From assembly GCF_000025625.1 (NCBI RefSeq), contig NC_013922.1, positions 310,001-374,000 on the forward strand: 64,000 nt of DNA, in the 5' to 3' direction. Source of the DNA: Natrialba magadii ATCC 43099. Lineage in GTDB: Archaea; Halobacteriota; Halobacteria; Halobacteriales; Natrialbaceae. The notes under the pieces are model-generated. The model searched no databases. It worked only from the letters and a program-made list of their open reading frames with translations, and had not been told where the DNA came from. Every line of letters starts with the position of its first letter. Position 1 is the stretch's first letter. Shown in pieces: positions 35,077-57,630 of this stretch. Position numbers and translations under genes: made by a program.

Positions 35077-35116
35077 GATAGGAGTAACTATCTTTTCAGA
35101 TCAACAGTGACCGACT

Positions 35117-36846: not shown

Positions 36847-36951
36847 CTACACACCCCCCACCCATGAGCCGAGACGGATCTTAAAACGCTAATTCAGCGA
36901 TATCGGGACATAGAGGGGGTGGTAGGTGTCTTGGATCGGAAATGAGGTGTT

Positions 36952-37965: not shown

Positions 37966-38080
37966 TACTCCTACTCTGAAAGCCAGCAGTTGACTCATTG
38001 AATCTTACGGCACACCCGTCCTCACCGAACATTCGGTTGGAGAAACAATTTATAGGAAGAATACATCCACCAAACATAAA

Positions 38081-38968
38081 ATGAGGTATGAATCAGATAG
38101 GACTCCTGATTATGCGCCTCCCAACGACCCGTGGGAGGAGCATCAGGCATCGGAAGATGCCCAAAGTTATCTAACACTGTACTACTGCGAGGACGAGATC
38201 AGCAAATATCCCGTTCGAGAGGTCACCAAGGTCAACGACAATAAGAGCGACCCGAATCTTGAGACGATGAGTTACGGATTGTGCTCTACCTGTACTCGGG
38301 ACATCCGATCCGGCCTGGTGAGGAACAACCGGCCCTACCTCTTCTTCTGCACGAACTTCAAAGGAGAGCGGCATCTCGCTGGGTACTACCATATTGGCTG
38401 GTACTCGTTGGGTCCACCGTTGCTCACCAACTACCGGAACGGTAGCATCCAGGACGACTACCGTCTCGTGGCGGACGAGATGAAGTGGATTTACCCTCCG
38501 ATCAGTTTCGAAACCATAGCCGACGAAACCGGATTTGACGGTATCTTGACCGGGTTCAGAAAGAAACTTGTCACACCCGAGACAACCGATGCTCTCCTCA
38601 GCCTTTTCGAGGATAGGGAGGACTATTCCCAGCAGTACCTTGATGAGATCCAGCGACTAGAACTGATTAACAAACGGTACCATGAATTCCGGTACCCGAC
38701 CTGGGAGCGGAAGGCCGGATTCGATTGGGAATCTGTCCAGAGCTACGTCGGAACGATGCAGACCGAAGAAGATGACGAGACCAAGGAGATTCTTGAAACA
38801 AAGATGGAGGAGATGGACATTGACTTTTCTCTTATCGCCTCAGAGGGCGTATCTGACTGGTTCTGTCTGATATGTAATCACGACTTTGAAAATAAGGCCC
38901 CGCTGAAATTATGCCCAAACTGTGATAACAATGGAGGGATTATCCCCGCAAGAGCGATCAACGAATGA
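38081..38968 (+). CDS. Zinc-binding protein of unknown function, first gene of the TIR/SLATT operon
   Basis: 295 residues. An N-terminal beta-rich region (EISKYPVREVTKVNDNKSD; HLAGYYHIGWYSLGPP) has CSTC near residue 68. A C-terminal zinc ribbon (WFCLICNHDFENKAPLKLC, then PNC) ends the protein, with a charged helix in between. The N-terminal part may be one of the small beta domains seen with nucleotide-modification genes, but I cannot assign it. TATA-like ATTTATAGG lies ~30 nt before the ATG. It overlaps the next gene by 4 nt. Confidence 0.75.
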   Translation: MRYESDRTPDYAPPNDPWEEHQASEDAQSYLTLYYCEDEISKYPVREVTKVNDNKSDPNLETMSYGLCSTCTRDIRSGLVRNNRPYLFFCTNFKGERHLAGYYHIGWYSLGPPLLTNYRNGSIQDDYRLVADEMKWIYPPISFETIADETGFDGILTGFRKKLVTPETTDALLSLFEDREDYSQQYLDEIQRLELINKRYHEFRYPTWERKAGFDWESVQSYVGTMQTEEDDETKEILETKMEEMDIDFSLIASEGVSDWFCLICNHDFENKAPLKLCPNCDNNGGIIPARAINE

Positions 38969-39540
38969 ACGACTCCACGGAACTACTTGATCTGCAGAAA
39001 CGTCAGCAAAAACATGATAAGGAGCATCACCGCGACATCTTCACACTCCCATATCCAGAGAGGATGAATCACTACGTGCTCCACTTTTCGAAGTACGTGG
39101 GCCGTATGTCTCGTGACTATGCTGATGATGACATGCGGATTGAACAAATCGAAAAGACGCTGGCTGATAGCTTCATCGTCGGACTGGCAGCGGCGAACAC
39201 ACTCAACTTAGATCTTCAGAATGAACTGGAGAAGATGTTCGGCCTTGAGGCAAACGGAGTTGCTGAATGGGGAGAAGCATTGAATCCTGCCGATGACGTG
39301 ATGGATTCGGAGGAACTGAAAGAATGGCTGTTTACGCGGATGGCCTCTCCGGCGGGACGTATGGCGAACGCGATGGAATCGCTGGACCACATGGAGCCAA
39401 TGAATACCCGCGAAGTCTTGGAAGAAGAGACAGTGGAAATCATTTCTGACCTTCTCATCGCTGCAGAGAACCTGGGTACCGACCTTGAGGAGATACTAGA
39501 CGAGAGATGGACCGAAATTGAGGAAGAGTCCATTCTGTAA
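38965..39540 (+). CDS. MazG-like all-alpha NTP pyrophosphohydrolase
   Basis: 191 helical residues. HYVLHFSKYVGRMSRDYADD, DSFIVGLAAANTLNLDLQNE and LLIAAENLGTDLEEILDERW follow the pattern of the MazG/dUTPase-like superfamily, whose members cleave (d)NTPs to monophosphates. Acidic residues suitable for Mg binding (EEL, EIISD) are present, but the canonical ExxE...ExxD set is not certain by eye. Coupled by ATGA to the upstream gene and 15 nt before the SLATT gene. The substrate could be a modified dNTP or a signalling nucleotide. Confidence 0.6.
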   Translation: MNDSTELLDLQKRQQKHDKEHHRDIFTLPYPERMNHYVLHFSKYVGRMSRDYADDDMRIEQIEKTLADSFIVGLAAANTLNLDLQNELEKMFGLEANGVAEWGEALNPADDVMDSEELKEWLFTRMASPAGRMANAMESLDHMEPMNTREVLEEETVEIISDLLIAAENLGTDLEEILDERWTEIEEESIL

Positions 39541-39555
39541 GTCAGGATTTCGAAC

Positions 39556-39996
39556 ATGGTAGAGAACTTCGACGAATTCTACGAGGAATTCTATAAACCG
39601 CAATTTGAGTGGTACGATACGAAGGCAATTAACAACAAGAAGTACCATCGAGGGATGAAGATTTCCCAGATTTCCTTAGCTGCGATTCTCCCGGTCGCCG
39701 TCACGTTGTTTCCGGTGACATCCAGCGCGTTCTGGCAGAACACGATCATCATTGCTTCTGTTCTACTTATCATCCTCGAAGCCCTCGAATCATACCTGAA
39801 CTACCAGAAAAAGTGGATGAACTATCGGACCACTGCTGAGGGACTTCGGCGCGAGGAGCAAATGTTCAAAACCAGAACGAAAGAATACGAAGGCGTGGAA
39901 AATCCTGAAAAGCTGTTTATCAAGCGGGTGATGGCGCTCACAAGCCAAGAGAATCGATACTGGGAGATTACTACGCGAAAAGCACAAGAGGCCTAG
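39556..39996 (+). CDS. DUF4231/SLATT-family two-transmembrane protein (putative effector)
   Basis: 146 residues. FEWYDTKAINNKKYHRGMKI leads into two hydrophobic segments (QISLAAILPVAVTLFPV and NTIIIASVLLIILEALESYL), then WMNYRTTAEGLRREEQMFKT and a C-terminal helix with SQENRYWE. This is the DUF4231 type of the SLATT superfamily. SLATT proteins are proposed membrane effectors that breach the membrane when a linked sensor makes a nucleotide signal. It lies 44 nt before a TIR-like gene. Confidence 0.85.
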   Translation: MVENFDEFYEEFYKPQFEWYDTKAINNKKYHRGMKISQISLAAILPVAVTLFPVTSSAFWQNTIIIASVLLIILEALESYLNYQKKWMNYRTTAEGLRREEQMFKTRTKEYEGVENPEKLFIKRVMALTSQENRYWEITTRKAQEA

Positions 39997-40040
39997 CCAC
40001 ATTGTGTCAATTAGAACGGCTTACCAGGCCGCATGAAAGA

Positions 40041-40511
40041 ATGACCACCCGTCGAGTCTTCATCAGTTACGAGGGAAGCGACCGGATGAAAGCCAAGGGC
40101 TTCCGGTTGCTTCGATGGAACAAGAATGTTGACGTCGAGTTTCAGGACCGCCACCTCCTTGATCCCGTTGACAGCACGAACGACCAGTACATCCAGCAGT
40201 GTATTCGGGACGAAATCAAGGGAACCTCCACTACCGTCGTTCTGGTAGGCGAGAACACGAAGGACAGCGACTGGGTTGACTACGAAATCGAACGGTCGCT
40301 GAAAGAAGGGAACGGCTTGGTGGCTATCAAAGTAGATGACGAAATCACCGACGAAGATGTACCGGACAAATTGAAAGAGAACGGTGCAGAAATCGTCGAT
40401 TGGAATCCGGACGAGTTCGGTGATGCGATCGAACGGGCGGCGAGCCAACGGAGCAAGGTTGGTGAGTCAACCGTTAGAGGACGTGCAGGTGCTGGATGCG
40501 GACGGTCCTAA
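40041..40511 (+). CDS. ThsB-like TIR protein (DUF1863 type)
   Basis: 156 residues starting MTTRRVFISYEGSDRMKAKG. The Rossmann-like TIR fold continues with ECIRDEIKG-type helix QQCIRDEIKGTSTTVVLVGE and SDWVDYEIERSLKEGNGLVA, which is the pattern of Thoeris ThsB proteins that make cyclic-ADP-ribose-type signals from NAD+. The Glu in DYEIERS is the candidate catalytic acid. Last gene of the operon, after the SLATT gene. Start at 40041 chosen on conservation; a 13-codon extension is possible. Confidence 0.82.
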   Translation: MTTRRVFISYEGSDRMKAKGFRLLRWNKNVDVEFQDRHLLDPVDSTNDQYIQQCIRDEIKGTSTTVVLVGENTKDSDWVDYEIERSLKEGNGLVAIKVDDEITDEDVPDKLKENGAEIVDWNPDEFGDAIERAASQRSKVGESTVRGRAGAGCGRS

Positions 40512-40678
40512 TTACTGAAGTAACCTTCCGGATGTTCGGGGCCAGGTGAAATCGCTAAGGTTAGTGTCTCAGTGGGACTCACCCCGCGTCTTATCGTACG
40601 CTGACGATCGATAACAGTGAGTGGAATCTGTTGGTGTACGCTTTCTGAGCGGATGTGACCATATTTCACTAGGCGATC

Positions 40679-40936
40679 TCATTTGGAATGCGCTTCAACA
40701 ATCAAATTAGCAAAATCGACAGAAAGCGTACGATTCTCATTTGGAATCTGCGTACTCTTCATCCACAAACCAGAGGTGATTCTCAAAACACTAATTCAGA
40801 GAAATCAGCGTATAGAGGATCTTAGGAGGGATCTTGGAGCGGGTCTGAGGGGTGAGGACACCGCGGATTCCAAATGAGATACTCCTTCGTGAGGCACTGA
40901 GAGGCGGACCCAACCACACCCCTCGTACCGAGTGAG
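40679..40936. repeat. Dispersed-repeat cassette: paired TCATTTGGAAT, inverted copy, and CACACCCCTCGTACCGAGTG
   Basis: TCATTTGGAAT at 40679-40689 and 40737-40747 (58 bp apart), the inverse ATTCCAAATGA at 40867-40877, and CACACCCCTCGTACCGAGTG at 40915-40934. The same order of modules recurs at 44.1-45.8 kb. The rest of the gene-free stretch 40512-41107 shows no coding frame. Confidence 0.8.
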
Positions 40937-41107
40937 CATGTTGGGAACTCTCAACGCAGAGAAAATGCAAGGTATCTCTTGGGAGAGGACTCACTGAATT
41001 ACTTGGAATGATTCTGCAGCGACAGCTTGACTGTTAGCGCTGGGGGTGTAGCTCTAACACACTTACGTAACACTATAATTAGTTCAACACGTAACACTAA
41101 ACAGAAG

Positions 41108-41308
41108 ATGCCCAAAACAAAGGTCCAAGTCACCGAATCCGAGGTTACTGATCGGGATGGCAACACACGCGAAACCAAACAATATCGAGTCACCATCCCG
41201 AAGGACACTGCCGAGTTCTTCAGCCTAAAACAAGGCGACGAACTCGAATGGGAGATGGGGCGAGCGCGAAACAAGATGGAAGTCACCATCCACCATAACG
41301 ATGACTGA
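41108..41308 (+). CDS. AbrB-type swapped-hairpin DNA-binding protein
   Basis: 66 residues starting MPKTKVQVTESEV. KQYRVTIPKDTAEFFSLKQG then DELEWEMG is the AbrB/SpoVT/MazE-like swapped-hairpin fold. It overlaps the downstream recombinase gene by 8 nt, so it likely regulates or accompanies that gene. It could also be an antitoxin, but no toxin partner is adjacent. Confidence 0.8.
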   Translation: MPKTKVQVTESEVTDRDGNTRETKQYRVTIPKDTAEFFSLKQGDELEWEMGRARNKMEVTIHHNDD

Positions 41309-42050
41309 CGAGCAGGAACCGTTAGTCGTAGATGGGTACACCCGGCTCTCCCAGGACAGCGACCGCAGCATTCCACGCCAGAAAGAAAAGATCCAAGAGT
41401 ACATCAACGAGCTAAATGACCGTGACGACCACCCGCCAGTCGTTCTGAACACGATCTTCGATGACGGCCGATGGTCTAGCGGATTCAGCACCGCTAATCG
41501 AGGCGAATACGGACAAGTCCTTGAACGAATCAAAAACAGCGAAGCAGATCTGGTCGTTGCCGATGGAAAGCGCCGGTTTGCACGCGACTTTGACGACACA
41601 ATGGATCTAATCCTGTCGTGTCGCAGCACTGGTGTTGAACTTCACGACACATCAACTGGCACGTTAGATCTTGACGATTCGATGAACGTTGCTATCGAGC
41701 TCTTACAGGCAGCGACCGAACACAAAGCTATGCGACGGTATATCGAGAAAAGCATCGAAGAGACCAATCGTCGCACAGATGCTGGATATTATCACGGGCA
41801 ACCTCCAGTCGCGCTCAGGTTCGATGAGAACAAGCAGTTTCTCGTTGCGGATGAGAATAGGATTGACGACGTCCTCCGCGTCTACGAGTTACGAGATGCA
41901 GGCGAGTCGTACCGCTCGATTGCTGAAGAGGTCCCGTGGAGTCCACCGACTATCGGTAAACTCATCGATCGACGTGATCAGTACGAAGCAGTTGTAGAGG
42001 GTGCGAAACTCGGGTTCAAGTTTACTATTGTTGAGCCAGAACTCACATGA
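41301..42050 (+). CDS. Serine recombinase (resolvase/invertase type)
   Basis: 249 residues. The N-terminal catalytic motif GYTRLSQDSDRSIPRQ contains the nucleophile Ser17 and the following Arg; the middle DLVVADGKRRFARDFDDTMD matches the resolvase core. The long E-like helix (LLQAATEHKAMRRYIEKSIE) and a C-terminal helix-turn-helix (SYRSIAEEVPWSPPTIGKLI) complete it. It performs site-specific inversion, resolution or integration. Translationally coupled to the AbrB gene. Confidence 0.88.
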   Translation: MTDEQEPLVVDGYTRLSQDSDRSIPRQKEKIQEYINELNDRDDHPPVVLNTIFDDGRWSSGFSTANRGEYGQVLERIKNSEADLVVADGKRRFARDFDDTMDLILSCRSTGVELHDTSTGTLDLDDSMNVAIELLQAATEHKAMRRYIEKSIEETNRRTDAGYYHGQPPVALRFDENKQFLVADENRIDDVLRVYELRDAGESYRSIAEEVPWSPPTIGKLIDRRDQYEAVVEGAKLGFKFTIVEPELT

Positions 42051-42210
42051 CCACCGCGAGTGGTGTGCATAACGCTACCCATCTTGTCAACAAAAGGATA
42101 TGTTAGAAGCATATCTGGTGAATTCTGACCGGTCCTGTTTAAGACTTTCTCACAAAACCCAGAAACGATGCGAAATCGATGGTGGGTTTGCTGAATTTAA
42201 GCATAGAAAA

Positions 42211-43149
42211 TTAGTTGATACCATAGAGTTCCGAGCAGCCCAGCGCTCGGTGAATAGTTTTCCGGCTGACGTCAAGTTCGCGTGCAGCTGCGGATTTGCT
42301 GAGATCCTCATACTTGACTGCATGAAGGACCTCGCATACACGGTCGTAATTGTTTGCAGGGACACGTCGTCCTGCGTCATCTTTGTCGAAGCCGAGCCTT
42401 GCCCGACCTGGGCGTATATTGTTATCGCCAGAGAGCCGGTCCTCAATATCCACACGCTCAGTCTTCCGCTGAATATCAATCCCAGCTGTATCAATCGCTT
42501 TGAGGAGTTCCGACGCGATCGTCTTGTCTTTAGAGCAGAGGACGAAACCAGAATCGACAACGTGAATCTCACAACCAGCATCAAGGATAATTCGAACGCG
42601 TTCTTCAATCTCTCGCACGTCGCGCCCGAAGACGCTCAGTTTGTCAACTATTATTGTGTCGAGATGTGTACTCTCGATCATAGCAGCGAACCTTTCACGT
42701 GAACTTGACCCGAGGACGATGCGCGGAGCAAACCAGATTTTAAACACTCGGCAGTTACGAGACCCACTATCAGTATCCTTGATGATGAATTGGGCATCTT
42801 CTCCTGTCGTTTCGCAATTGCTAAAGTGTATGTTCTGGATCGAAGGCTGGCGTTCACGGTCAGCGTGCAGGGCTTTCATGTAGTCAATCATATTTCTAAC
42901 ATCGTCGATTGGCTCGCGCGATGGGAATTCAGAGACTGCGAGCGAGTACCACGGGGTATTATCCGCTGAGAGGTGCACATCGTCTCTCTCTGTGGAGTCT
43001 TCGATTTCAGTCTCTCCCGTCTCACTGTCCCTCACGTAGCTGTCATCATTGTCCGACGATAAGGAGCGACTCATCATTTCCCTGTGTGCATCATCTTCAG
43101 TTCCAACCATTTCCTTCGACATATTTGATCTTGTCAACTCCTGCGGCAT
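42211..43149 (-). CDS. Diverged serine-recombinase-like protein
   Basis: 312 residues. The second half of a resolvase domain is clear (THLDTIIVDKLSVFGRDVRE, IEERVRIILDAGCEIHVVDS), followed by a helix-turn-helix (DLSKSAAARELDVSRKTIHR). The usual Y-x-R-x-S nucleophile motif is not recognisable in the N-terminal 100 residues, which are instead acidic. It may be a DNA-binding regulator derived from a recombinase. It converges with the intact serine recombinase. Two repeat pairs lie 70-120 bp upstream of its start. Confidence 0.65.
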   Translation of the reverse strand: MPQELTRSNMSKEMVGTEDDAHREMMSRSLSSDNDDSYVRDSETGETEIEDSTERDDVHLSADNTPWYSLAVSEFPSREPIDDVRNMIDYMKALHADRERQPSIQNIHFSNCETTGEDAQFIIKDTDSGSRNCRVFKIWFAPRIVLGSSSRERFAAMIESTHLDTIIVDKLSVFGRDVREIEERVRIILDAGCEIHVVDSGFVLCSKDKTIASELLKAIDTAGIDIQRKTERVDIEDRLSGDNNIRPGRARLGFDKDDAGRRVPANNYDRVCEVLHAVKYEDLSKSAAARELDVSRKTIHRALGCSELYGIN

Positions 43150-43216
43150 AAGTCCTCATTCCTAACGCACATCTAATCGCACAGTGTGCAGTTGACTGTG
43201 CGCATCCCATTCCAGG

Positions 43217-43270
43217 TGTGCGATAAGGATGTGCGATCACGAGAATGGATGTGCGATAAGGATGTGCGAT
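43217..43270. repeat. Iteron-like paired repeats, TGTGCGAT-N5-TGTGCGAT twice
   Basis: Four exact TGTGCGAT copies at 43217-43224, 43230-43237, 43250-43257 and 43263-43270. Within each pair the 5-bp spacer is identical (AAGGA), so the 21-bp block is perfectly duplicated with a 33-bp offset. This lies just upstream of the diverged recombinase gene and suits a dimeric or cooperative DNA-binding protein. Confidence 0.85.
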
Positions 43271-43931
43271 AGGGGTCAAACGGGGATGGAATCTTCAAAC
43301 CCGTGCGGCTGTTTCTAATGGCCTTATAGGGTGTATAGGATGATCTAAACCCTCAAATGACGTTTGCGGCTGTTCTATACCCCCACTGAAAATCCGTAGT
43401 TGGTACGAGGTATAGGCATTTAGCCGATGAATGAAACTGACCCAAGGGACGAGAGGAAGAGTTTCCTCCACGCTCATACGCCGCACGGCTTTGAGAATGA
43501 TGTACCTGATGGCACGGATCGGGCATGAACTAACTATCATCGACACAAATGCGCTTACACGCCACGACGAAAGAGACAAAACATTATTCTCGATGCAACT
43601 ATGTGAACGCTCACATTCCGCAAGGTTCCCGCACACCACGCGTCTTAGTCTTCAGGTTGAGAGTCACATTTTCGTCACAGCTAGGTTGCTCACGCTATTT
43701 TCTGGTTTGATTACAGAGCAGGACGAGTGCTTCAGACTTGACTCTATGACAACTCACCATAGAGACTCGTATCTCGTATTCTCGAAGAGAATTGTGAGCA
43801 CATCATTATAATGCGGCCAAGTTCCTGATCAATGTACCAGAATCATGTACCGAGTTACAGTACCACAGTATAACTCTTCGGTACTGTACCATGTCACTGG
43901 GACATGACGATGTGTCGTAAACCGCGGAATC

Positions 43932-44015
43932 TATAGTAACAACTGTAATGATTTACACACTGAGCACGGAGGGGCCTAGCGATCTGGTGTGCAATGACTT
44001 GCAGTGACTACTATA
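43932..44015. mobile_element. MITE-like element, copy 2
   Basis: 84 bp with ends TATAGTAACAACTGTA and TGCAGTGACTACTATA, similar along its length to the copy at 4220-4302. The paralogous segment near 45352-45370 lacks it and reads AATCTCATTTGGAATTC across the insertion point, which gives an empty site and shows that a TCATTTGGAAT motif was interrupted. Confidence 0.75.
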
Positions 44016-44417
44016 GTTTGAAATTCGGGTGAACCGATTTCTGCGATGGATCCGAGTAATCGAGGAACTCTTTTGCGGTTACTCGTTTGGAATCCGCGCA
44101 CCTGCATGCGTAAATCAGAAACAAATCTCCAAAAGACTAATCCGTCGAAACGGGCCACAGAGAGGACGATGAGGTGTCTTAGAGCGGAATTGAGGGAGAT
44201 TATGAGTTTTAATGGGATGCGACACTCAAAGCAAAGATATTGACACACTCCCAGTGGATCGATCGTTTCTAGTGCTGACCAGATTACGAACAAGTCCCAC
44301 TCTGTGGACTTGCCGGATAGGTGGCTGACGACGTGTTTATTAGGACACCACAGTTCCAAATGTGAACACCTGTAAACGACGTTTTGAGTCCCTATGAGTT
44401 CGTATCTTCATCACGGC

Positions 44418-45786
44418 CACACCCCTCATACCGAGTGAGTATGTCAATATTGATTAACGTAAACAGGGCCGAATCAAGAGTCTATCTTCTTGAGGCGAGG
44501 GAATCCCTTCGTTCACGACGGGCGTGAATCGTCGCACGGTGGATTGACGTGTTCTAAAGCGGTAGCGGGTGCTGACCGACGCAAAACAAGCCAGATAACT
44601 CCGAGTCAGCAGGGCAGAACCACGACCCCACTGCCGGATAGGAGTAGCGGTTGCGTGGCCCCGCCAGCACCCCGTCGGTGTGCAAACGTAAGTTCCCACT
44701 ACAGCGGGCCTCCGCTCGTGGGAAGCCTCGCCGTCGTCGAGCTACGCCCGACTGCCTGAGGGATCGAAGATCCCTCTTCGTTTACGTCGAGGAGGAGGTC
44801 ACCTCAGTTACGTCAACTAGCTTTGACCAACAACGAATCAACACTCATTTTCTGAGGGCTTATTGAACAATTGGTATCCTCAAATCGATTAGGACACCGC
44901 GGATTCCAAATGAGTAGTGTCCCTAAACGACGTTGTGAGCCACTATCAGTTCGGTTTTCATCACGGCCACACCCCCCGTACCGAGTGAGTGTGTCTCTCA
45001 ATCTTCACACCAACTGTCTCTACGGCTTCTAGGGGGCATACTACTGCCTGCCCAGCAGTGGTTGCTGAATGCATCTACTCCATGCAGATTCCAGTCATAA
45101 GCAGTGATCGCTTCGATCCCGGGATACTCGCGTTATTCTCTGGTATATAGGCAGAATAGGGAGAGTGCTTCGGGACTTGACTGTAGGGCAGTTCACAACG
45201 GTGACTCTTATTTCTTAGCTCCGAACAAGACTGTGAACACATCACGCTAATAGATCAGATACCCGGGCTATGTATCACAGTATAGCTCTTTGATACTGTA
45301 CCATAGTTTTGTACCAGGCCTCCGGTACATGTCGATGTGGCGTTGAGTGCAGAATCTCATTTGGAATTCGGGTGGACCGATTTGCTAAGATAGATCTGAA
45401 TAATCGAAGTTCCCTCTTGCGGTTACTCATTTGGAATCCACGCACCCACATCCATAGACTAAAAACAGATCCCCAAAACACTGATTCGTCGAAATCAGGT
45501 TACAGAGGAGACAATGAGGGATCATGGAGCGGAACTGAGGGGTGCTATGAGTTTTAGTGGAGTATGATGCTCAAAGACAGAGATATTGAGACACTCTCGG
45601 TAGATTGGCGGTTTGAGTACTATCCCAATTGTAAACGGATGCCAGTTCCGGCTGACTTCTCAGGTAAGTGACTTTGGTATGTCTGCTAGAACTCCGCGAA
45701 TTCCAAATGAGAAGGACCTATAAACGACACTGTGACCCTCTATGGGTCGGGTCAACATCACGGCCACACCCCTCGTACCGAGTGAG
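44418..45786 (+). repeat. Three further copies of the CACACCCCTCGTACCGAGTG motif
   Basis: Copies at 44418-44439 (one mismatch), 44968-44989 (one mismatch) and 45765-45786, each as a 22-bp core usually preceded by ATCACGGC. Inverse TCATTTGGAAT motifs stand at 44903-44913 and 45700-45710, and direct ones at 45357-45367 and 45427-45437. Confidence 0.8.
44560..44803 (+). pseudogene. Remnant of a tnpB 3' end plus IS200/IS605 right end
   Basis: A frame reading AGADRRKTSQITPSQQGR and DRSSGCVAPPAP resembles the tail of haloarchaeal TnpB (GAEN..., then GDRS-G-LAQP). AACTCCGAGTC and GGATAGGAGTA are shared with the intact element's 3' end. It ends in a GTCGAGGAGGAGGTCAC hairpin-type right end like that at 2506. 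The catalytic domains are missing. It sits inside copy 1 of the duplicated segment. Confidence 0.65.
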
Positions 45787-46047
45787 TATACTGTCGGCAG
45801 AACGGTTGGGACCTTCGGTAGAGACATTACCGGCGAAGTCTACCAAAGCCCTTGTCCGATAGTATATGTCTTGTTGCTCTGTATGCCGTGTAATCTTCAC
45901 TCAGCAGTCTCTACAGTCATAAGCCGCACACCACTTACTGCCCTGCTCTGCAGGGATCGTACTACATGCCGACCCCACCAACAAGCAGTGAGCGCTTCGA
46001 TCTCGGCCGTGACCGTTCGGTATTCGCCAAGAGCAAAACTAAATCGC

Positions 46048-46175
46048 TCATTTGGAATGTGGTCAGTCCATTTTGTTTGCAAAACCCCATGACAGCGAGC
46101 AGTTCTCATTTGGAACTCGGTCCACACTCCGATAGAGACACATTCGGCTGCCCTACGGCGATTCTCATTTGGAAT
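46048..46175 (+). repeat. Array of three TCATTTGGAAT units at 58-59 bp spacing
   Basis: Units at 46048-46058, 46106-46116 (final T to C) and 46165-46175. The last two are preceded by TTC; the intervening sequences are not alike. Regular spacing suggests binding by a repeated protein complex rather than chance. Confidence 0.8.
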
Positions 46176-46280
46176 GTGCGCAGGTAGCAGTCCATCTTCT
46201 ATATACAACATCTTACAGTACCACTCTTTCACAATAGTGCGAGACAGATACCCCAGGTTTTGACCCCGTAGCAGTTGGCA

Positions 46281-47501
46281 CACCCTCCCCCCTTATTTCG
46301 AACGTACTATTGGTCCAAGCAGGGGGAGGGGGTTAGATTCCAATCAATGGTCCAACACCTTTTCTTCGCCCCGAACGTACAACTATGACGATGAAAGAGT
46401 GAGAGTTACTGTAATATGAGGACAAAAACAGCGCCCCCACACCCCTAATTTCGATCGTTTTAACCTGAACGAGGTGGGTGGGTCGAACAATCAATCGATA
46501 CGACAACGCTAATTCTTGTTGGGGTATTGTATCGAGCAGTCAGTTTTGGTTGCGCCAAATAGCCGTATTCTCATCACTCCCTGAATTTCAGCCACTCATA
46601 TGATCTCTACGAGATTAGATCGGCATTCACTACTAAGTTCTACATTGCAATTGCACAACGATCTGTGTTCTTCACAGTAGCGTTACTCGCTTCACGCTAT
46701 GACGGATCAAGAGGTAGTGATAGTGGGTTTCTGATAGTACAAGCGTCTATAACTTCTTTAGGAAATAAGATCCTATACCATAAGAGTTAAGTTACTATTA
46801 TATATTAACATTTATTAATTTATAACAAGGTAATTAGCCACAATCATCTACACTAAAAGCATGTCATAGAAGGGTTTCCGTGAATTCAGCCAGTGGTCAG
46901 TACAGACGCTACTCATGTGCTGTCGTTGCTAATGAAAACGCTCGTATCACATTCTATTGCTGTTTCGAATGCTCCCACAGCTTTCTTCATCGAATCAACG
47001 ATATCGTTACCCGACACTTCTCGTACCTCCGCCCCCTTATTTTTCCACATCAATACTATCGTATGTTTTGATTTCTCTTCATTATCCATAACTGCGTATT
47101 CGTTCCTCGACGGATTAAGAAAGGCTGATCATAGACTTCTCGGTTCTCACCGTACACTGTAACTGATCGACTGCAGACGATTCTGTAACACACCGACTCT
47201 AAAGATAGAAATTCTACATGGTACACAAGCACCTCACAGTATAGGACCGCTTACCCCCATCAATAGCTCTAGCCCACGAACCGAGTTTAGATGCCATCCA
47301 CGTTGTTTAAATGTGGACTATTCGATTTCTTTGACCCTACCCACCCCCTCAAACCCGATTACGCTCGAAATGAGGGGTGGGGGTGTTGAGAGATAGTCCA
47401 ACAAGTTCAGGTAATCCGCCTCAAGATAGCGGTAAACAAACCCAGATCCTTTGACCCCCACCCCCTCGAACTAAATTACGTTCGAAATGAGGGGTGGGGG
47501 C
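46281..47501. other. Candidate replication origin of the integrated element
   Basis: Four G-string repeats: two on the left read C-run then TTTCGAACGTA/TTTCGATCG (46281-46306, 46433-46457). Two on the right read the reverse complement, TTACGCTCGAAATGAGGGG and TTACGTTCGAAATGAGGGG, each followed by a further G-run (47359-47385, 47476-47501). They flank a very AT-rich core at about 46785-46840. Inverted origin-recognition-type boxes around a melting region, with an Orc1/Cdc6 gene 0.55 kb to the right, is the usual layout of an archaeal origin. The motif is not the classical ORB sequence. Confidence 0.6.
46913..47089 (-). CDS. Small ORF (58 residues) inside the candidate origin
   Basis: Reads MDNEEKSKHTIVLMWKNKGA then EVREVSGNDIVDSMKKAVGA. 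It looks like a compact alpha/beta protein with sensible haloarchaeal-plasmid codon use, and has ATG and TGA ends. No family is recognised and no clear promoter is visible. Confidence 0.45.
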   Translation of the reverse strand: MDNEEKSKHTIVLMWKNKGAEVREVSGNDIVDSMKKAVGAFETAIECDTSVFISNDST

Positions 47502-47734
47502 GTTGAGAAATCGTTCCGGATCTCTCACTCTATTTTTAAGGAAAGAATCTGACTATTCATGGCAGCGTAAATCCGACAACACCTGCGCAGCCTACATTCC
47601 ACAATAGCACAGTCTTTAATCTATATAAGGATTCTAATTTTATATTACACTAAGGGGGCACGTATGTCCACTTATTCGGATAATATTGGAACTCCAAAAC
47701 CGGGCAGGTTCGAGACACTCTCTCGAACCCCTGT

Positions 47735-47947
47735 GTATCTCGTTACAAAATAACTCCAAGTCCTCTGCTGGGATACGAGTGACGGCGGTGTGGCCCCACC
47801 AGTAGCCTTGTCGTGCCGACCGAGAGACAAATCAGCATATCCCAACCCAGTGGTACAGTGCCGTCGGAAGCCTCACCGTCGTCAGGTGTAGCCCGCCTGC
47901 CTGGGGGCTCTTTGATCCTTCTCCGTTTTTAGCGAGGAGAAGGTAAC
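47735..47947 (+). pseudogene. Second remnant of a tnpB tail and IS200/IS605 right end
   Basis: AACTCCAAGTC, GGGATACGAGTGACGG and a terminal AGCGAGGAGAAGGTAAC correspond in order to the right end of the intact element at 2506-2710. Internal stops break the frame. It lies directly before the Orc1/Cdc6 promoter. Confidence 0.55.
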
Positions 47948-48016
47948 TTTGCAGTCAAGTAATTCGAGATGGGAGAAACGCGCAGCAGGTGAGTTTGTCT
48001 GACAGTCGGTGAAACC

Positions 48017-48024
48017 GTTATATG
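48017..48024 (+). promoter_or_regulatory. TATA box of the orc1/cdc6-like gene
   Basis: GTTATATG lies 24-31 nt before the ATG at 48048, which fits a leaderless transcript. Confidence 0.5.
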
Positions 48025-48047
48025 TAAACAGGAACTGGCATACAGCC

Positions 48048-49319
48048 ATGGAAAATCCCTTCAAAAGATCGAGTGTGCCGACTTCTTCACCGCGAGCCGA
48101 GAGTGACCAGATATTCGAGACGAAGGAACCCTTCTCGAAGGATTTCTGTCCTGACAAAGTGTTTGGCCGAGAGGATGAAATTGATAGACTTAGCATTCTC
48201 CTCAGTGATGTTGTCCAGGAGTTCGGGGCACCAAACATCCTTATCGAGGGTCAAGAAGGCTTCGGCAAAAGAACAGTGACAACGTATGTATTAGACGCAC
48301 TTCAAGAGGAATGTCCGACCCAGATCACTATTCTTGATGTAGACTGTAAGGAACACAATAGTATTTACCAAATTCTTCTGCATTTGTCCTATGAATTTGG
48401 TGAGTCATTCGTTAAACAAGGACATCCAACTAGTACATTACGAAAAATCGTCTACAAGAAACTGAATGAGTTCGGTGGAACAGTTCTTATTATCCTCAAT
48501 AATATTCAAGAATTGGGTCCAGATGATCAACCCGTCGCTGAGTTTCAAGAAGCGTGCACAGATGGAGATATTAGTAACGCTGAGGTGGGTGTGATTGGCC
48601 TTTGCAATAGAATTCGCCTCCCCTATCATCTTGCGGAGTCGGTCAAGAACCATGCTCAAACATCAAAAGTAACCTTTGAACCATACCGATCACCAGAACT
48701 TCGGGCTATTTTGGAGTATCATGCTGAAATAGCTTTCAAAGATGATGTCTTAGCTCCTGGTGTAGTACCAAAATGTGCAGCGATTTCGGCTCAACTCACA
48801 GGAGACGCTCGAACAGGCTTAACTCTGTTAAAATTGGCAGGAGAAATCGCTAAGGAATCCAGTGATGAACAGATTACTGAAAAGCATGTTGATAGAGCTA
48901 ACTCTAAGCTTGATACTACACAATTTATTGAGTCATATGTTGAAGATTTCTCCAGAGAAGAACAGCTCGTTGGGCTGATCATAGCATTACTTGATATGAG
49001 GAACGAGTGCGAAATAGAGTTCAGACACGTTTATTCGCATTACTACGAGTACGCCGAGAAAGTAGGATTGAATCAAGTCAGCGAGCGTCGTGTCCGTGAT
49101 TTTTTGTGGCCATTTGAAGAAGAAGGAGTGGTTTCTGTCGAGAGACATAATGCAGGGAGGCAAGGCGAGAAAACCGGTGAACGTGGAGGTATCTGGCATA
49201 CATATTCACTAGAAGTTCCAGCACCAGAGATAGTTGAAGCAGCCAGATCCGCATTTACGCCATTTCAAAAGCTAATCACATACGAAGAGGAATCGAATTG
49301 GGAAAACTACGATAGGTAG
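48048..49319 (+). CDS. Orc1/Cdc6-family replication initiator with degenerate ATPase motifs
   Basis: 423 residues. PDKVFGREDEIDRLSILLSD is the standard start of the AAA+ domain. Walker A is GQEGFGKRT, with Arg where Ser/Thr is normal, and Walker B is LIILNNIQEL, with Asn-Asn replacing Asp-Glu. Lid and winged-helix parts follow (LTGDARTGLTLLKLAGEIAK; ERRVRDFLWPFEEEGVVSVE). Orc1/Cdc6 proteins bind origin repeats and recruit the helicase. Low GC and position beside origin-like repeats indicate the initiator of an integrated replicon. ATP hydrolysis is probably lost. Confidence 0.88.
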   Translation: MENPFKRSSVPTSSPRAESDQIFETKEPFSKDFCPDKVFGREDEIDRLSILLSDVVQEFGAPNILIEGQEGFGKRTVTTYVLDALQEECPTQITILDVDCKEHNSIYQILLHLSYEFGESFVKQGHPTSTLRKIVYKKLNEFGGTVLIILNNIQELGPDDQPVAEFQEACTDGDISNAEVGVIGLCNRIRLPYHLAESVKNHAQTSKVTFEPYRSPELRAILEYHAEIAFKDDVLAPGVVPKCAAISAQLTGDARTGLTLLKLAGEIAKESSDEQITEKHVDRANSKLDTTQFIESYVEDFSREEQLVGLIIALLDMRNECEIEFRHVYSHYYEYAEKVGLNQVSERRVRDFLWPFEEEGVVSVERHNAGRQGEKTGERGGIWHTYSLEVPAPEIVEAARSAFTPFQKLITYEEESNWENYDR

Positions 49320-49349
49320 AGTAGGAACTAATTCGCTATTAGGGGCGTT

Positions 49350-49367
49350 GTCCGCGTTCTCGCGGAC
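49350..49367. terminator. Short hairpin after the orc1/cdc6-like gene
   Basis: GTCCGCG-TTCT-CGCGGAC, a perfect 7-bp stem starting 31 nt after the stop codon. No strong T-run follows, so termination by it is uncertain. It could equally be another IS-end fragment. Confidence 0.35.
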
Positions 49368-49550
49368 CTTGGCGTCTCACGGTCGTGCTTGTATCGCAAC
49401 CCTCCCAACCCAATTTTTCAAAAGTGAGTCACGGCACAGCGTTCTGTGATACAGTCATTGGGCACCCTGTCCCGTAGGGTTCCCTCGAATTAAATCCGCC
49501 CCCATAATGACGGAAAGTAGTTGCCAGCACGTGGTGTGCGGAACTGCACT

Positions 49551-49622
49551 CGTGCAGTTGTACGTACGGCCGAATGTACGCTCGAACGTGCAGTTGTACG
49601 TACGGCCGAATGTACACTCGAA
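49551..49622. repeat. Two tandem 36-bp repeats rich in GTAC
   Basis: CGTGCAGTTGTACGTACGGC begins each unit (49551-49586 and 49587-49622), with a single mismatch between them. More GTAC motifs follow to about 49690. 49368-49791 has no credible gene. Confidence 0.85.
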
Positions 49623-49791
49623 CGAATACTGGCGTGTACACTTGGTTATACTTCGGTAATATGGGTAGTACGTACATCTGGACGAACGACTGTCGATACA
49701 TAGCGTCGTGCGATCGTGCGTTGACAAGATCAACCGGACCGAATAGAAGTGGACTCTAAGTAGACCTGATAGCAATTACTCAGGTATCCCG

Positions 49792-49953
49792 TCATCCTCT
49801 ATGTCCTGTTGCTAATGTTCCTTCCTCATCGAGAATCTCATCTAAGTCCTCGAAATAGTGATTATCGATCACCCGATCTTCCTCTTCCTCGCTGTCGAGA
49901 ACATCGTCTAAGCCTTCGAAACCAATGTCACCTGCCTTATCTCTGTTAGACAT
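49792..49953 (-). CDS. Small acidic protein (53 residues) with an internal repeat
   Basis: MSNRDKAGDIGFEGLDDVLD and HYFEDLDEILDEEG show two copies of a F-E-x-L-D-x-[VI]-L-D motif separated by an acidic linker. A TATA-like TTAATTATAGG precedes the start by about 33 nt on this strand. It may be a small regulator or antitoxin; no family is recognised. Confidence 0.5.
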   Translation of the reverse strand: MSNRDKAGDIGFEGLDDVLDSEEEEDRVIDNHYFEDLDEILDEEGTLATGHRG

Positions 49954-50016
49954 GCGATTCGTACGATTCGCGGCCTATAATTAACGATATCTGGGTTTGA
50001 GTGTCCCATTGCATTG

Positions 50017-50073
50017 GTACTGTACCTCGGTGCTGTACCATGGTACTGCGACGTGGTACTGTAACGTGGTACT
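50017..50073. repeat. Cluster of GTAC palindromes
   Basis: Five GTAC motifs in 57 bp within repeating GGTACTGTACC, CTGTACCATGGTACTG and GTGGTACTG units. Similar clusters occur at 43834-43892, 45290-45335, 51876-51912 and 54103-54180. Confidence 0.8.
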
Positions 50074-50140
50074 CTCCGCACACCACACCGCGGTTCAGTC
50101 GCGTGGATTTTAGACCCATCGCCGCATACATGCGCACGAC

Positions 50141-50245
50141 ATGGCGCATGAGGTTCGTGATGTGATCGGGATTGAACAAGTTTTGATCCTTGCGCTCGGG
50201 ATCTCTATGATAATCGTCGGTGTCGCAGGGCTCGTCTGGTTCTGA
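50141..50245 (+). CDS. 34-residue single-pass membrane microprotein (tentative)
   Basis: MAHEVRDVIGIEQVLILALG continues as ISMIIVGVAGLVWF, one well-formed hydrophobic helix ending at the stop. It lies between a GTAC cluster and a decayed recombinase. Small membrane ORFs of this kind are common in haloarchaeal elements, but there is no homology support here. Confidence 0.4.
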   Translation: MAHEVRDVIGIEQVLILALGISMIIVGVAGLVWF

Positions 50246-50457
50246 CTCTCAACGATCGATCTTGCGTGCGTGGTGTGCGGCTAAACATGGGTCACTCGTC
50301 AGGCACCCACATCGTGATCTCCTCTCTATCGTAAAATTCCACAGCTGGTGGGTCCTCATCTATGCACGGTTCGGGTGGGTCTCGATTGAGAGACTCTTGC
50401 AGAAGTGGGTGCATAAGGTCCTTTTAGTGATCTCTGATGTTAGTCGTTTCCAAGAAG

Positions 50458-51189
50458 CTACCTTCCGAGGGGTTCGAGTTGTTTCTCCCCGGCTTCGACC
50501 TTCGCACGTTCGCCCTTCCACTCGTCATTGTCGAACGAGATTTCGTAGTTCTGCTCAGCGCGCTTCAGGATCGACTGGACGGCCGACTGCGGGATTTCGA
50601 AGTAATCCGCGGTCGTACTCTTGGACCGTCCTTTCTTGACTTCCCTGATGAAGTTCTGAGCGCGGTTGTACTCGACCGGATCCTGGTACATGAACCCGTC
50701 TTCAACATAGTAACCGAAGGGAGGTCTCCCGACTCGCTTCCCATCGCGCCGGGCTTTATCGACTCCTTGCTGCACGCGGTCTTGGATCATCTTCCGTTCG
50801 GCGTCGTCCAGCACTATCAGCATGTTCAGTAGCATGTCGGCCATCCAGTCGTCTTCGCGCGTGGTGTCGATCAGTTACTGCGTGAGATTAAGACCGATGT
50901 TTTTCTGCCGTAGGTCCTCGACGAAAGACGCGAGTCCACTGAACGATCGTCCGAGTCGATCAATCTCTGTAGCAGTGATGACGTCAAATTCATCGATCGA
51001 TTCGCGCATGTCGTTGTACTGGTCACGGAAGAGTCACGCCCCTGACTCGATGTCCACGAACCACTGGACTTCATCTTCGTCGTATTCGTTGAGAATCGAT
51101 TCGCGTTGGCGTTCGGCGTCCTAGTCAGCTGTGCTGACTCGGACGTAGGCTGCAGTGTTCTGAGGAGGTGTTTCGTCTATACCCAACCT
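50458..51189 (-). pseudogene. Serine recombinase with three in-frame stops
   Basis: One continuous frame encodes a full-length serine recombinase: AAYVRVSTAD (nucleophile Ser), DVITATEIDRLGRSFSGLAS, DDWMADMLLNMLIVLDDAER and DGKRVGRPPFGY. It is broken by TAG at 51121-51123, TGA at 51034-51036 and TAA at 50875-50877. There is no frameshift. Each stop is one C-to-T change from a Gln or Arg codon. The likely start is TTG near 51186. Only the C-terminal part after 50844 is open from an ATG. Confidence 0.85.
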
Positions 51190-51622
51190 AATCGACGTAC
51201 CCCTATCAAAGAGGTTAGTTCTCTTGACGGTATGGAATAGATTAGTTTTCCTTAGTTAGTCGCGCAAGTCGTGTGCAAAATCCAGTAGGTTTGGTTGCGT
51301 CGCAGCGTCGATGGCGTACGCTCCCGTGAGCGCTGCTGGTGTGAGTAGTGTATTAGCAGTGCACCGGTGAGTATTCACGTGATGCGGTTATCCCAGTTCA
51401 TCTGTCCCATACCTCCAACGGGTGCTCGCTCGGTGTGCACGCTGAGTGCGGGGCCGAGTGTCTTGGTGGTTGCGTGCAAATCAACCGCCTGTCCGGTGCA
51501 CGGCGTCGCACGCCGGGTTCCCGCACAACCGGCGTTCCGGGCTGCATTCGCAGTGAGTGTTGCTTGCCCCATACTCGATACTCCGGGTTACACCCGTGAA
51601 GGAAAGATAAGATAGTTGATGT
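51190..51622. other. 433-bp stretch without a supported gene
   Basis: Short frames exist on both strands at 51367-51615, but none has a recognisable domain. The sequence CGCACGCCGGGTTCCCGCAC is GC-rich and partly palindromic. I see no RNA gene. Confidence 0.35.
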
Positions 51623-51811
51623 CTAACCCTCGTCGTCCTGTAGGAAGTCGCTGGTATCGCACATATCGACCGCCTCTTCGAAGGCCTCCCGGTCCTCCCG
51701 CATCCCGTCGATCACGTCGTCACCAAGTCGCTCCCGCACTTCATCTTCCGTGATGTCTCCTGCACGGTAGCGTTCGTACGTAGCGATTTTCTCCGCGTCG
51801 CGCATACTCAT
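51623..51811 (-). CDS. Small acidic helical protein
   Basis: About 62 residues, MSMRDAEKIATYERYRAGDI then TEDEVRERLGDDVIDGMRED. It looks like a compact helical protein of the SHOCT-like or antitoxin kind (short helix, ITEDEVRERLG). No family is assigned with certainty. ATG codons at 51811 and 51805 are both possible starts. Confidence 0.6.
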   Translation of the reverse strand: MSMRDAEKIATYERYRAGDITEDEVRERLGDDVIDGMREDREAFEEAVDMCDTSDFLQDDEG

Positions 51812-51853
51812 AGTTCGACTCAAAGACTTCTAATTCTTCCTCCGGGACCGTGG

Positions 51854-51912
51854 ATTCCAAATGAGAGTGTAACAAGGTACAGTACTACGTCTCGGTACCT
51901 TGGTACTGTAAG
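51854..51912. repeat. Inverse TCATTTGGAAT motif followed by a GTAC cluster
   Basis: ATTCCAAATGA at 51854-51864, then GGTACAGTAC and GGTACCTTGGTACTG to 51912. It is upstream of the 51623-51811 gene on that gene's strand. Confidence 0.75.
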
Positions 51913-54637: not shown

Positions 54638-55870
54638 ATGGGTAATTCGTCCGACGATACATACACACTGGAGGGCGCCAAAGAGGAGATTGACATCCTT
54701 CGACGTGTCGAGGAGGACGTTATAGACGCGATTGAAAACGCTGAAGATGAGGACGTGTTACAATATCTCATCGAAGACGAGAAACTGGACGAGACACACG
54801 ATGGAAAGCGTGGGCTCGGCAAAGTTCGACGTGCAGTTCTTGAATCTACACTTGCGTCTGACCGTCTCAAGCGCGTCGTGAGTCTCCGAGGTGACGAAAC
54901 GCCCAAAGACATCCTGGTTCCTGAGGACGTTACGCGAAACGCCAAAGTCGCGCTTGAGGCAGGGAAACCCGTCGTGCTCTATGGACCGACGGGAACGGGC
55001 AAGACGACGTTTGCGAAGCAGTTGGCCCGAGATACGGGAATCGGATACTCACTCCACACCGCGACGCCTTCGTGGACACCCTCGGACATCATCGGTGGAA
55101 TCAGTCCCGACTACACTGGTGAATCGCTAAGCTATCGGACCAAGCTCGGCTGTGTCTCGGAGGGTGTTCAACGGGCTCGGCGGTTCGACGTCAAATACGG
55201 TGTCATCCTCGACGAGATTACCCGGGCCGACATCTCAAAGATCTTCGGGCCACTTTACACCGCCATCGAAAACCCGCACCAGACGATTTTCGAGACCGAT
55301 GAGGGAGAGACCATCCAACTCGACGAGCGGGTAAACATCATCTGTACGATGAACATGTCGGACCGCACAGTAAACGAACTCGACAACGCGATCACCCGCC
55401 GGTTCGCCATGATCGAGTTGGACGAATACGAGGAGGACAAGCGACGGCAGCTGTTCAGAGACTGGCTCGACACACACGTTTCAGGACAGACTGATATCGA
55501 CGACAGCGAGTTGCTCCGTCTCTTTGAGCGAGACTACGAGGGGATCAACCACGGCAACGAATCCACGGCACAGGGAGCAATCATGCGGTTCGGTCCGATG
55601 CACTACCGCGACGTCGCCGTGTTCGTCGGTGTCGCCTGCCGAGAAGGTGGGGAGTACGAATACGACCAAACCGATTCGGTCGGACAAGCCTTCCGAACGT
55701 ACATCGTTCCCCGGCTGCTGAACTCCGCAGCGTTCCCACAGGTGGAGCGAATTGCAGAACACTACCGGGCGCTGAACGACGAGTTTGAGGAATTCGACCT
55801 CGCCCCGGCGGCTGAACTCGCTGAACGGGAACTTGAACAGGAGCGACGCCAGATGGGTTCATACGAGTAA
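54638..55870 (+). CDS. mcrB: McrB-like AAA+ GTPase of a type IV restriction system
   Basis: 410 residues. Walker A GPTGTGKT at 116-123, Walker B VILDEITRAD with Asp191-Glu192, and the McrB-type TMNMSDRTVNELDNAITRRF segment, which corresponds to the GTP-binding NTxD region. The N-terminal ~90 residues are charged helix and do not resemble a known modified-base reader, so specificity may come from elsewhere. It forms the motor for McrC; its stop overlaps the mcrC start. Confidence 0.88.
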   Translation: MGNSSDDTYTLEGAKEEIDILRRVEEDVIDAIENAEDEDVLQYLIEDEKLDETHDGKRGLGKVRRAVLESTLASDRLKRVVSLRGDETPKDILVPEDVTRNAKVALEAGKPVVLYGPTGTGKTTFAKQLARDTGIGYSLHTATPSWTPSDIIGGISPDYTGESLSYRTKLGCVSEGVQRARRFDVKYGVILDEITRADISKIFGPLYTAIENPHQTIFETDEGETIQLDERVNIICTMNMSDRTVNELDNAITRRFAMIELDEYEEDKRRQLFRDWLDTHVSGQTDIDDSELLRLFERDYEGINHGNESTAQGAIMRFGPMHYRDVAVFVGVACREGGEYEYDQTDSVGQAFRTYIVPRLLNSAAFPQVERIAEHYRALNDEFEEFDLAPAAELAERELEQERRQMGSYE

Positions 55871-57630
55871 TGAGTAGCATCGACGAAGTCTATCAGTACG
55901 GCCGGGATACGTTCGACGTCCCCGAGCGAGGGGAGATCCGGATAGAGGACTGTCCGTCGACCATCACTGATCAACTTCGTCGCGCGTCATTCACGCAGGA
56001 GAGCCCCGGCGTGTTCACGAAGCGCCAGGAGGCTCTCGACTCCGACCAACAGTACGATGTCATCACGGTGACTGTGGAGGGTGACGACGGCGACGTCATT
56101 CACGTTTCCGCGACGGATATCGTCGGAGCGGTCAGTCTAACACCGTCATCGAAGGTGACGATCTCTCCGAAGATCGACTGGGGACCGATCTTCGACATGC
56201 TCCTGGCAGTGTACGATCAGAACCGGTCGATCGACTACCACGGGATCCCACTTCAGGACTTCCTCTCTGACGATATCGAACTCGACGACGTGCTCGTGGT
56301 GATGGCGATCAACTACTTGGAGGGACTTGAGACCATCCAACGCAACGGGTACATCCGGGACCTGATCCTTCGACGGACCAACAGCCTTGAAGGTCGAGGA
56401 GAGATCGACGTCGAACAAACCCTTCTGAACCACGCCCGCGGGACTGTCGAGCCGAATTGGATCCGAAACGAAACGGAGTACGACAACGCTGCGAACTCGT
56501 TACTCCACTACGCAGGGAAAACACTGCTTCGGCTGTTCCGTCAGAACGCCTCGGAGTACGACCATCCCGGTTACGATCGTATCTTCTCAGAAGTTCATCG
56601 GGAGATCGAACGGTTGGAGGGGATGGGTGTTGACAGCGGGTTGGACCGTATCGACGAGTATCGGCGCATCACTCTCGGTGACTTGCCGAAACAACGCCAG
56701 TACTACCGAAAGGCGTTCGACGTCGCAAAGGCAGTGTTGTCGTCATCGCTCGGTCAGCAGCTCAAGGACGGACCTCGGGAGTTGGTTGTGGACTACGTCC
56801 TGAACATGGAGTCACTGTTCGAGCAGTACTCACAGGTGGTGATCGAGCGCGAACTCTCGTATATCAAGTCCTACGATCATTTCGATTCGATTGCCAACGT
56901 CAAACCTGCGTCGTCACCGTCAGTAAATCCGTTCGAAGGAGAGAACCAAATCTACCACGAGCCCGATCACGCGCTCCAAGAGGGCGAAGAAACGATCGCC
57001 GTTCTTGACTCCAAGTACTACGCAGAAGGGCACGATCCCGTTAAGGAGTCCCAGTCACGGTCACGGCTGTTCAGCTACGCCTACCTCCTGCACGCCGACA
57101 GACTCGCATTCCTGTGTCCGTTGCTCGAACCACGACGCCGTCGAGTTACACAGACTGGCGCAGAGTTGGAGATCGTCTCTCCGACGGGCGACTTCTCGCT
57201 AGACAAGTATGACGAAGTCGTACACGAGTACCTCCATAGCGTTCTCGTAGAGATCCACCCAGAACTAGAACCGTTCCACGCCATCGCAGAGAACAAGCTG
57301 TGTTTGGATGGGGTGGACGAGAGCGATCTCAGCAAAGCTGCCGATATGAACGGCCCCTTTGCATTCCAAGACCCCCGAGATTTCTCACTTCAGGTGGTAA
57401 AAGCGGCTGCTGATGAACACTCGTACAACGTTCGGAACCGGTACGACTTAGAACATGGTGGCGATTGGACGCGAGAACAGATCGAAACACGATGTGGCCG
57501 ACGTAACGAGTACACGTGGACTTGCCTTCCCGTATTTTACGAGGGGGGAGGTGAAGACTGGGTAGACCTGTACTTCCTCAAACGAGATACGGGGGAAGTC
57601 GAGAAGGAAGGTCCGTTAAAACTCCTGTAA
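55870..57630 (+). CDS. mcrC: McrC-like nuclease subunit
   Basis: 586 residues. The N-terminal part (VTISPKIDWGPIFDMLLAVY; GLETIQRNGYIRDLILRRTN then SLEGRGEID) is the McrC DNA- and McrB-contact region. A PD-(D/E)xK nuclease follows, with Glu/Asp then AVLDSKYYAEG as the catalytic core. A ~150-residue C-terminal extension is not typical of short McrC proteins. It cuts DNA after GTP-driven translocation by McrB. The start codon overlaps the mcrB stop (TAATG). Confidence 0.85.
   Translation: MSSIDEVYQYGRDTFDVPERGEIRIEDCPSTITDQLRRASFTQESPGVFTKRQEALDSDQQYDVITVTVEGDDGDVIHVSATDIVGAVSLTPSSKVTISPKIDWGPIFDMLLAVYDQNRSIDYHGIPLQDFLSDDIELDDVLVVMAINYLEGLETIQRNGYIRDLILRRTNSLEGRGEIDVEQTLLNHARGTVEPNWIRNETEYDNAANSLLHYAGKTLLRLFRQNASEYDHPGYDRIFSEVHREIERLEGMGVDSGLDRIDEYRRITLGDLPKQRQYYRKAFDVAKAVLSSSLGQQLKDGPRELVVDYVLNMESLFEQYSQVVIERELSYIKSYDHFDSIANVKPASSPSVNPFEGENQIYHEPDHALQEGEETIAVLDSKYYAEGHDPVKESQSRSRLFSYAYLLHADRLAFLCPLLEPRRRRVTQTGAELEIVSPTGDFSLDKYDEVVHEYLHSVLVEIHPELEPFHAIAENKLCLDGVDESDLSKAADMNGPFAFQDPRDFSLQVVKAAADEHSYNVRNRYDLEHGGDWTREQIETRCGRRNEYTWTCLPVFYEGGGEDWVDLYFLKRDTGEVEKEGPLKLL

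Follow-up and report, generated by a model that had tools for sequence, protein, structure and literature searches.

A predicted mobile-element replication origin in Natrialba magadii, paired with an Orc1/Cdc6 initiator of a clade with degenerate ATPase motifs

In this work we analysed a 64,000-nucleotide stretch of the chromosome of Natrialba magadii ATCC 43099 (positions 310,001–374,000; the window), and we describe within it a locus that is likely to be a replication origin together with its initiator gene, brought in by a mobile element that inserted itself into a tRNA-Val gene. The origin is of the Orc-linked haloarchaeal kind and has a lineage-specific ORB. The initiator belongs to a clade that has lost the key residues of the ATPase site, and this clade matters more than the origin itself. 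It is also the new part of this work, as our search of the open-access literature yielded no description of an archaeal Orc family with degenerate ATPase motifs, while the kind of origin is known.

Four copies of the box ACGNNCGAAATNAGGGG lie upstream of an orc1/cdc6 gene, arranged as two inverted pairs that flank an AT-rich core, and all of them extend into G-strings oriented outward from the core. On the left, ORB-L1 with its G-string occupies positions 46281–46305 of the minus strand (ACGTTCGAAATAAGGGGGGAGGG; box proper 46289–46305, ACGTTCGAAATAAGGGG) and ORB-L2 positions 46434–46458 of the same strand (ACGATCGAAATTAGGGGTGTGGGGG; box proper 46442–46458, ACGATCGAAATTAGGGG). On the right, ORB-R1 (47361–47385, ACGCTCGAAATGAGGGGTGGGGGTG; box proper 47361–47377, ACGCTCGAAATGAGGGG) and ORB-R2 (47478–47502, ACGTTCGAAATGAGGGGTGGGGGCG; box proper 47478–47494, ACGTTCGAAATGAGGGG) are on the plus strand. 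The core, a putative duplex unwinding element to which no strand is assigned, lies at 46763–46822 and is 83% AT; no 60-mer between the inner boxes has a higher AT content, and only 0.04% of the 60-mers of the window are equally AT-rich. The initial annotation had proposed inverted box pairs around an AT-rich core, and both are present. Its layout of the left boxes also holds, but one of its sequences does not: the plus strand of ORB-L2 reads TTTCGATCGT, which makes this box a one-base variant of the TTTCGAACG that had been given. An additional element, which had escaped that annotation, is a C-rich arm about 25 nt inward of each box, in other words an inner inverted G-string. Read on the plus strand, the arm of ORB-L1 is G-rich (46322–46333, GGGGGAGGGGGT, inverted repeat I3), and those of ORB-R1 (47340–47351) and ORB-R2 (47457–47468) are C-rich and belong to the 58-nt repeat D1. 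These inner arms resemble the G-rich inverted repeat of Haloarcula hispanica oriC1, which acts there as an enhancer (PMC3936714). The four boxes found in 45801–48047 compare with none in 2000 dinucleotide shuffles, and the 4.44-Mb genome (4,443,643 bp in total, with contigs of 3,751,858, 378,348 and 254,950 bp) contains no further exact match, a reversed-pattern control giving zero. An Rfam scan of the window gave no match.

The Orc1/Cdc6-like gene that had been announced after the boxes is intact (48048–49319, plus strand, 423 amino acids). Its product scores 269.9 bits against NCBIfam TIGR02928 (cut-off 181.3) and matches Pfam Cdc6_lid (2.8e-21) and Cdc6_C (1.9e-7), so that the AAA+, Cdc6 lid and winged-helix domains are all present. 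Its homology to Sulfolobus/Saccharolobus Orc1-1 (PDB 2qby, E 2e-37) and to Aeropyrum pernix ORC1 (2v1u, E 1e-32) is whole-length and spans these three domains. These two proteins use ATP and carry GKT and LDE, whereas the N. magadii protein carries GKR and LNN, within a degenerate Walker A (GQEGFGKR) and a degenerate Walker B (LIILNN), a feature absent from the initial annotation. The closest relative is 37% identical, and no near homologue was found. The same degeneration is found throughout the clade: Walker A reads GKR in 7/7 Orcs and Walker B reads LEN, VEN or LNN, with the catalytic glutamate replaced by asparagine in all seven, whereas the 46 Orcs compared from outside the clade have GK[T/S] and LDE or LDD (the Orc encoded at 1.96 Mb is a trimmed sequence, and its motifs were read in a separate comparison). 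Alignment to 2qby and 2v1u places these changes at the nucleotide site. The sensor-1 asparagine is kept, and alignment to the A. pernix Orc indicates that the arginines of the winged helix that contact the ORB are kept at three of four positions (RR347-348 and R371), the fourth being Ala, Thr or Ile. The clade Orcs are under purifying selection, with dN/dS of 0.11–0.24 in four close pairs, as measured in relatives, the N. magadii copy being too diverged (dS saturated). These values indicate that the orc genes of the clade are maintained, and on this ground gene decay was rejected as an explanation for the clade.

The boxes and this type of Orc go together across genomes. The clade has seven members, from six genera and three families, and is supported at 100/100, a support that remains 100 after removal of the ATPase motif columns. 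At least two exact boxes were found in five of the 392 scanned genomes of the order, all five carry a clade Orc, and no genome without a clade Orc has at least two boxes. This association has a Fisher p of 8e-11, a value that ignores relatedness: there are about four independent lineages, because three genomes are nearly identical (G153, G222 and G385) and two are close (G224 and G549). The sixth member of the clade, in G224, has variant boxes, and the seventh, in G549, was found in another sample by its match to the Orc profile alone; although this locus played no part in defining the box, its boxes have the identical inverted layout. A search for the motif near related orc genes had been suggested, and these boxes accompany all seven homologous Orcs in one and the same inverted arrangement, the distal ones on the minus strand and the proximal ones on the plus strand; homologous orc genes without boxes, an outcome named beforehand as arguing against an origin, were thus not observed. 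An AT-rich stretch lies between the boxes at 7/7 loci, within the top 0.3% of its surroundings, and a 13-mer (CCTATACCATAAG) at the left edge of the N. magadii core (46772–46784, plus strand) is identical in the cores of G224 and G549. In the 23 boxes of the clade, ACG, CGAAA, GGG and three G-string positions are invariant. The inner boxes are 490–1826 bp apart, compared with about 300 bp at several other Orc-linked sites, a wider spacing that counts against an origin of this kind.

Outside the clade, the single box matches of other genomes are not extended by a G-string, and other Orc clades, including the sister clade, have different boxes. That sister clade (L051–L056) belongs to the same starred grouping of the tree, shows the best BLAST identity to the N. 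magadii Orc (36–37%) and likewise has inverted boxes upstream of orc, but these read AACACTTACAATCCGGGG and its Walker motifs are intact (GKT, LDE). No clade Orc was found in the six congeners searched, a back-translated peptide search of the genome and viral contigs gave no near relatives, and phage records gave no match. The viral contigs contain seven single box matches, which we take as background because none has the G-string extension. Among the plasmid matches listed there is no clade Orc, the best identity being 36%. On the Haloferax gibbonsii plasmid pHG4 (L108, 3754–4030), boxes of the form AACGTCGGAAAC..GGGGTGGG lie downstream of orc in both orientations and resemble the N. magadii box; this candidate (AACGTCGGAAAC..GGGG beside orc) was rejected, as its Orc, with intact motifs, does not belong to the clade. 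As a separate observation, proteins encoded 3.4–11 kb upstream of orc are 99–100% identical between G224 (L179/L180) and G549 (L182/L183), which are of different genera and whose Orcs are only 88% identical, a pattern that by its sequence looks like a recent exchange beside an older origin.

Most features of this locus have precedents in the haloarchaeal origins adjacent to orc/cdc6, as described by Wu et al. (2012; PMC3528665) and for oriC1 and oriC2 of Har. hispanica (PMC3936714). There too orc stands beside the origin, the core is AT-rich, the inverted repeats carry outward halophile G-strings with a G-rich inverted repeat inside the boxes, and each Orc family has one box sequence, gained with new genomic content. 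The differences are the core of the box (ACGNNCGAAAT instead of CCAGTTGAAACGAAGGGG), the wide inner spacing and the degenerate ATP site of the initiator. The core motif was thus correctly described as unlike the classical ORB, ACGNNCGAAATNAGGGG here contrasting with the oriC1-type CCAGTTGAAACGAAGGGG found at the N. magadii oriC1 region. The claim that the box is unusual holds for its sequence and not for its kind, which is ordinary, every haloarchaeal Orc family having an ORB of its own (PMC3528665). The origin has probably been predicted before: Wu et al. count seven orc genes on the N. magadii chromosome and predicted origins beside five of them (PMC3528665), another study reports five full-length chromosomal orc genes and a main origin near 1.96 Mb (PMC3403918), and on our reading the gene at 48048–49319 is one of five full-length ones.

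The origin locus lies inside a 43,718-bp element inserted in a tRNA-Val(CAC) gene, and the proposal that it belongs to an integrated replicon is borne out. A 27-bp repeat, attL (AAAATGGGTTGGGGCAGATTTGAACTG, 28663–28689, no strand assigned), has an exact copy, attR, at chromosome positions 382381–382407, about 8.4 kb past the window, where it overlaps the 3′ end of the tRNA gene. Just inside the left repeat is a tyrosine integrase gene (28666–29871, plus strand; Pfam Phage_integrase 1.3e-8, PHROG integrase 7e-27); the start of this reading frame within attL is mechanical, and the gene probably starts further inside the element. Three congeners have an empty site (G223, G362 and G303; loci L132, L133 and L134), in which the sequence left of 28.66 kb of the window is joined to the tRNA-Val region at 382.38 kb of the chromosome, and G303 has an undivided repeat with an intact tRNA gene. 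The att repeats, the integrase and the empty site establish that this locus is a site-specifically integrated mobile element. Archaeal elements integrated in tRNA genes likewise have a terminal tyrosine integrase and an att site in the 3′ end of the tRNA gene, and tRNA-Val(CAC) is among their most used targets (PMC8371274); the N. magadii element differs in that no capsid or conjugation gene was recognised among the proteins scanned and that its cargo consists largely of defence genes, including a CBASS operon. A related locus in G306 encodes an integrase 35% identical to this one and has McrBC-like and methylase genes in common with the N. magadii element.

In the mechanism that we propose, the orc gene next to the origin would supply a protein whose winged helix would bind each ACGNNCGAAATNAGGGG box and whose AAA+ domain would touch the outward G-string, a contact established for other archaeal Orcs. 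Bound to the two inverted box pairs, Orc would mark the AT-rich core between them, where the host MCM helicase would be recruited and replication would start bidirectionally. The initiator would either load MCM without ATP control or need an ATP-competent host Orc. With its main predicted origin at another site (about 1.96 Mb), the host chromosome would not depend on the origin of the element, which may consequently be weak or dormant while integrated and serve mainly an excised or plasmid form.

In the current view, ATP binding activates archaeal Orc1/Cdc6 proteins and hydrolysis inactivates them. Since the Walker A Thr/Ser and the Walker B glutamate are lost, the clade is predicted to consist of initiators without the ATP/ADP switch proposed for these proteins. 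Such a loss is odd for a helicase loader, because only ATP-bound archaeal Orc is reported to recruit MCM, hydrolysis being the off state (reviewed in PMC7776575 and PMC4010727). We consider it plausible, at somewhat less than even chances, that this initiator lineage, carried at least in part by mobile elements, still initiates after losing its ATP residues, having either escaped the switch or borrowed a host ATPase. Taken alone, the origin would be one more clear case of mobile elements importing initiator–origin pairs with their own box into haloarchaeal chromosomes. A lineage that is under selection without the key residues, and that has a conserved origin in six genera, would in addition be a natural test of whether the switch is necessary, and possibly an exception to the assumed on/off control of archaeal replication. 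If the initiator is autonomous, its loading of MCM would escape the limit set by the ATP/ADP switch; if it borrows a host ATPase, the result would be an archaeal mixed initiator complex, with labour divided as in eukaryotic ORC.

Several other readings of the locus have to be weighed. A chance arrangement of G-rich sequence with no origin has next to no probability. Loose box matches (at most three mismatches) are more frequent than expected elsewhere in the window (14 observed, 6 expected), but we rejected this reading on the shuffles, on the uniqueness of the exact boxes in the genome and on the comparison of genomes, where boxes are linked to Orc in 7/7 cases and background singles lack the G-string extension. 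Another reading makes Orc a DNA-binding regulator and the boxes its operators or autoregulatory sites. The ATPase motifs are degenerate throughout the clade, and Orc1-2 of Saccharolobus islandicus, likewise an Orc1 homologue removed from the standard initiator role, provides a precedent for conversion into a non-initiator transcriptional regulator (PMC9738581). However, the boxes are confined to the region upstream of the gene itself, all seven loci have inverted boxes, an AT-rich core and outward G-strings, and the Orc1-2 pattern is reversed in the clade: Orc1-2 keeps its Walker A and B motifs and has lost the ORB-contacting arginines of the wing (PMC9738581), whereas the clade has lost the ATPase motifs and kept three of the four arginines. 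We therefore regard a purely regulatory role as improbable.

Two further proposals bear on how the origin works. One is that Orc marks the origin by binding the boxes, as one subunit of a mixed complex in which an ATP-competent host Orc performs the ATP step. Eukaryotic ORC, as a parallel, contains catalytically poor subunits. The loss of the ATP site from a protein that keeps its fold, its sensor-1 asparagine and its winged helix is in line with this proposal, as is the presence in N. magadii of several other Orcs with intact motifs. On the other hand, no second orc was seen beside that of the element, and Har. hispanica origins each depend specifically on their own Cdc6 (PMC3936714), so that we consider a mixed complex rather unlikely, with a better chance than a regulator. 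The other proposal is that the origin is real but a dormant passenger, which served the element before integration and is silent on the chromosome; it would differ from the main reading in the state of the origin and not in its identity, and we give it an even chance. The element is a specific insertion, with Orc absent from six congeners and the site empty in three, and the interval from the boxes to orc contains an IS200/605-like remnant; a Har. hispanica origin could no longer replicate autonomously once 203 bp between it and cdc6 had been lost (PMC4441112). Among the origins predicted in variable, recently acquired parts of haloarchaeal genomes, some are dormant (PMC4595724) and others deficient or nonfunctional (PMC4441112), and origins located in newly gained chromosomal regions can be inactive in wild-type cells (PMC4595724). 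Against dormancy, the Orc frame is intact, the four boxes are preserved and the clade as a whole is under purifying selection.

Several other features of the region were observed. The remnant between the right ORBs and orc, IS200/605-like or MITE-like, lies at 47829–47947; it resembles 44717–44802 (74% over 86 nt) and also sequence adjoining a tnpB-like gene at 2566–3879. Two serine-recombinase genes lie near the origin (41301–42050 and 42211–43149), and 50458–50844 is a shortened third. The motif TTCCAAATGAG has 12 copies genome-wide, all confined to a 15-kb part of the element and seemingly intergenic (36835, 40678, 40736, 40868, 44904, 45356, 45426, 45701, 46047, 46105, 46164 and 51855; overall range 36835–51865 of the window). 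Three copies spaced by 58–59 bp are immediately left of the left ORBs; the motif is one base off the ORB part TTCGAAATGAG, has no G-string and was not found at the related Orc loci. It is possibly a titration, partition or operator site. The CBASS-type operon (31425–36337) comprises a SMODS nucleotidyltransferase, an E1-E2/JAB protein and a TIR-SAVED effector. Further likely defence genes of the element, some of them named by eye, are at 40002–40511, 54638–57630, 58246–60948, 62576–63607 and L129:3121–4875, a set made up of a Thoeris ThsB-like TIR protein, an AAA and McrC-like pair, a DUF1156/Hma-like methylase, a PDC-S05-like protein and an SNF2-like helicase. A 5-hmdU DNA kinase helical domain (6e-67) occurs in another protein of the element (36952–37998). 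Left of the element, a gas vesicle gene cluster at 13945–21000, with genes named by eye, is chromosomal and not part of the insertion.
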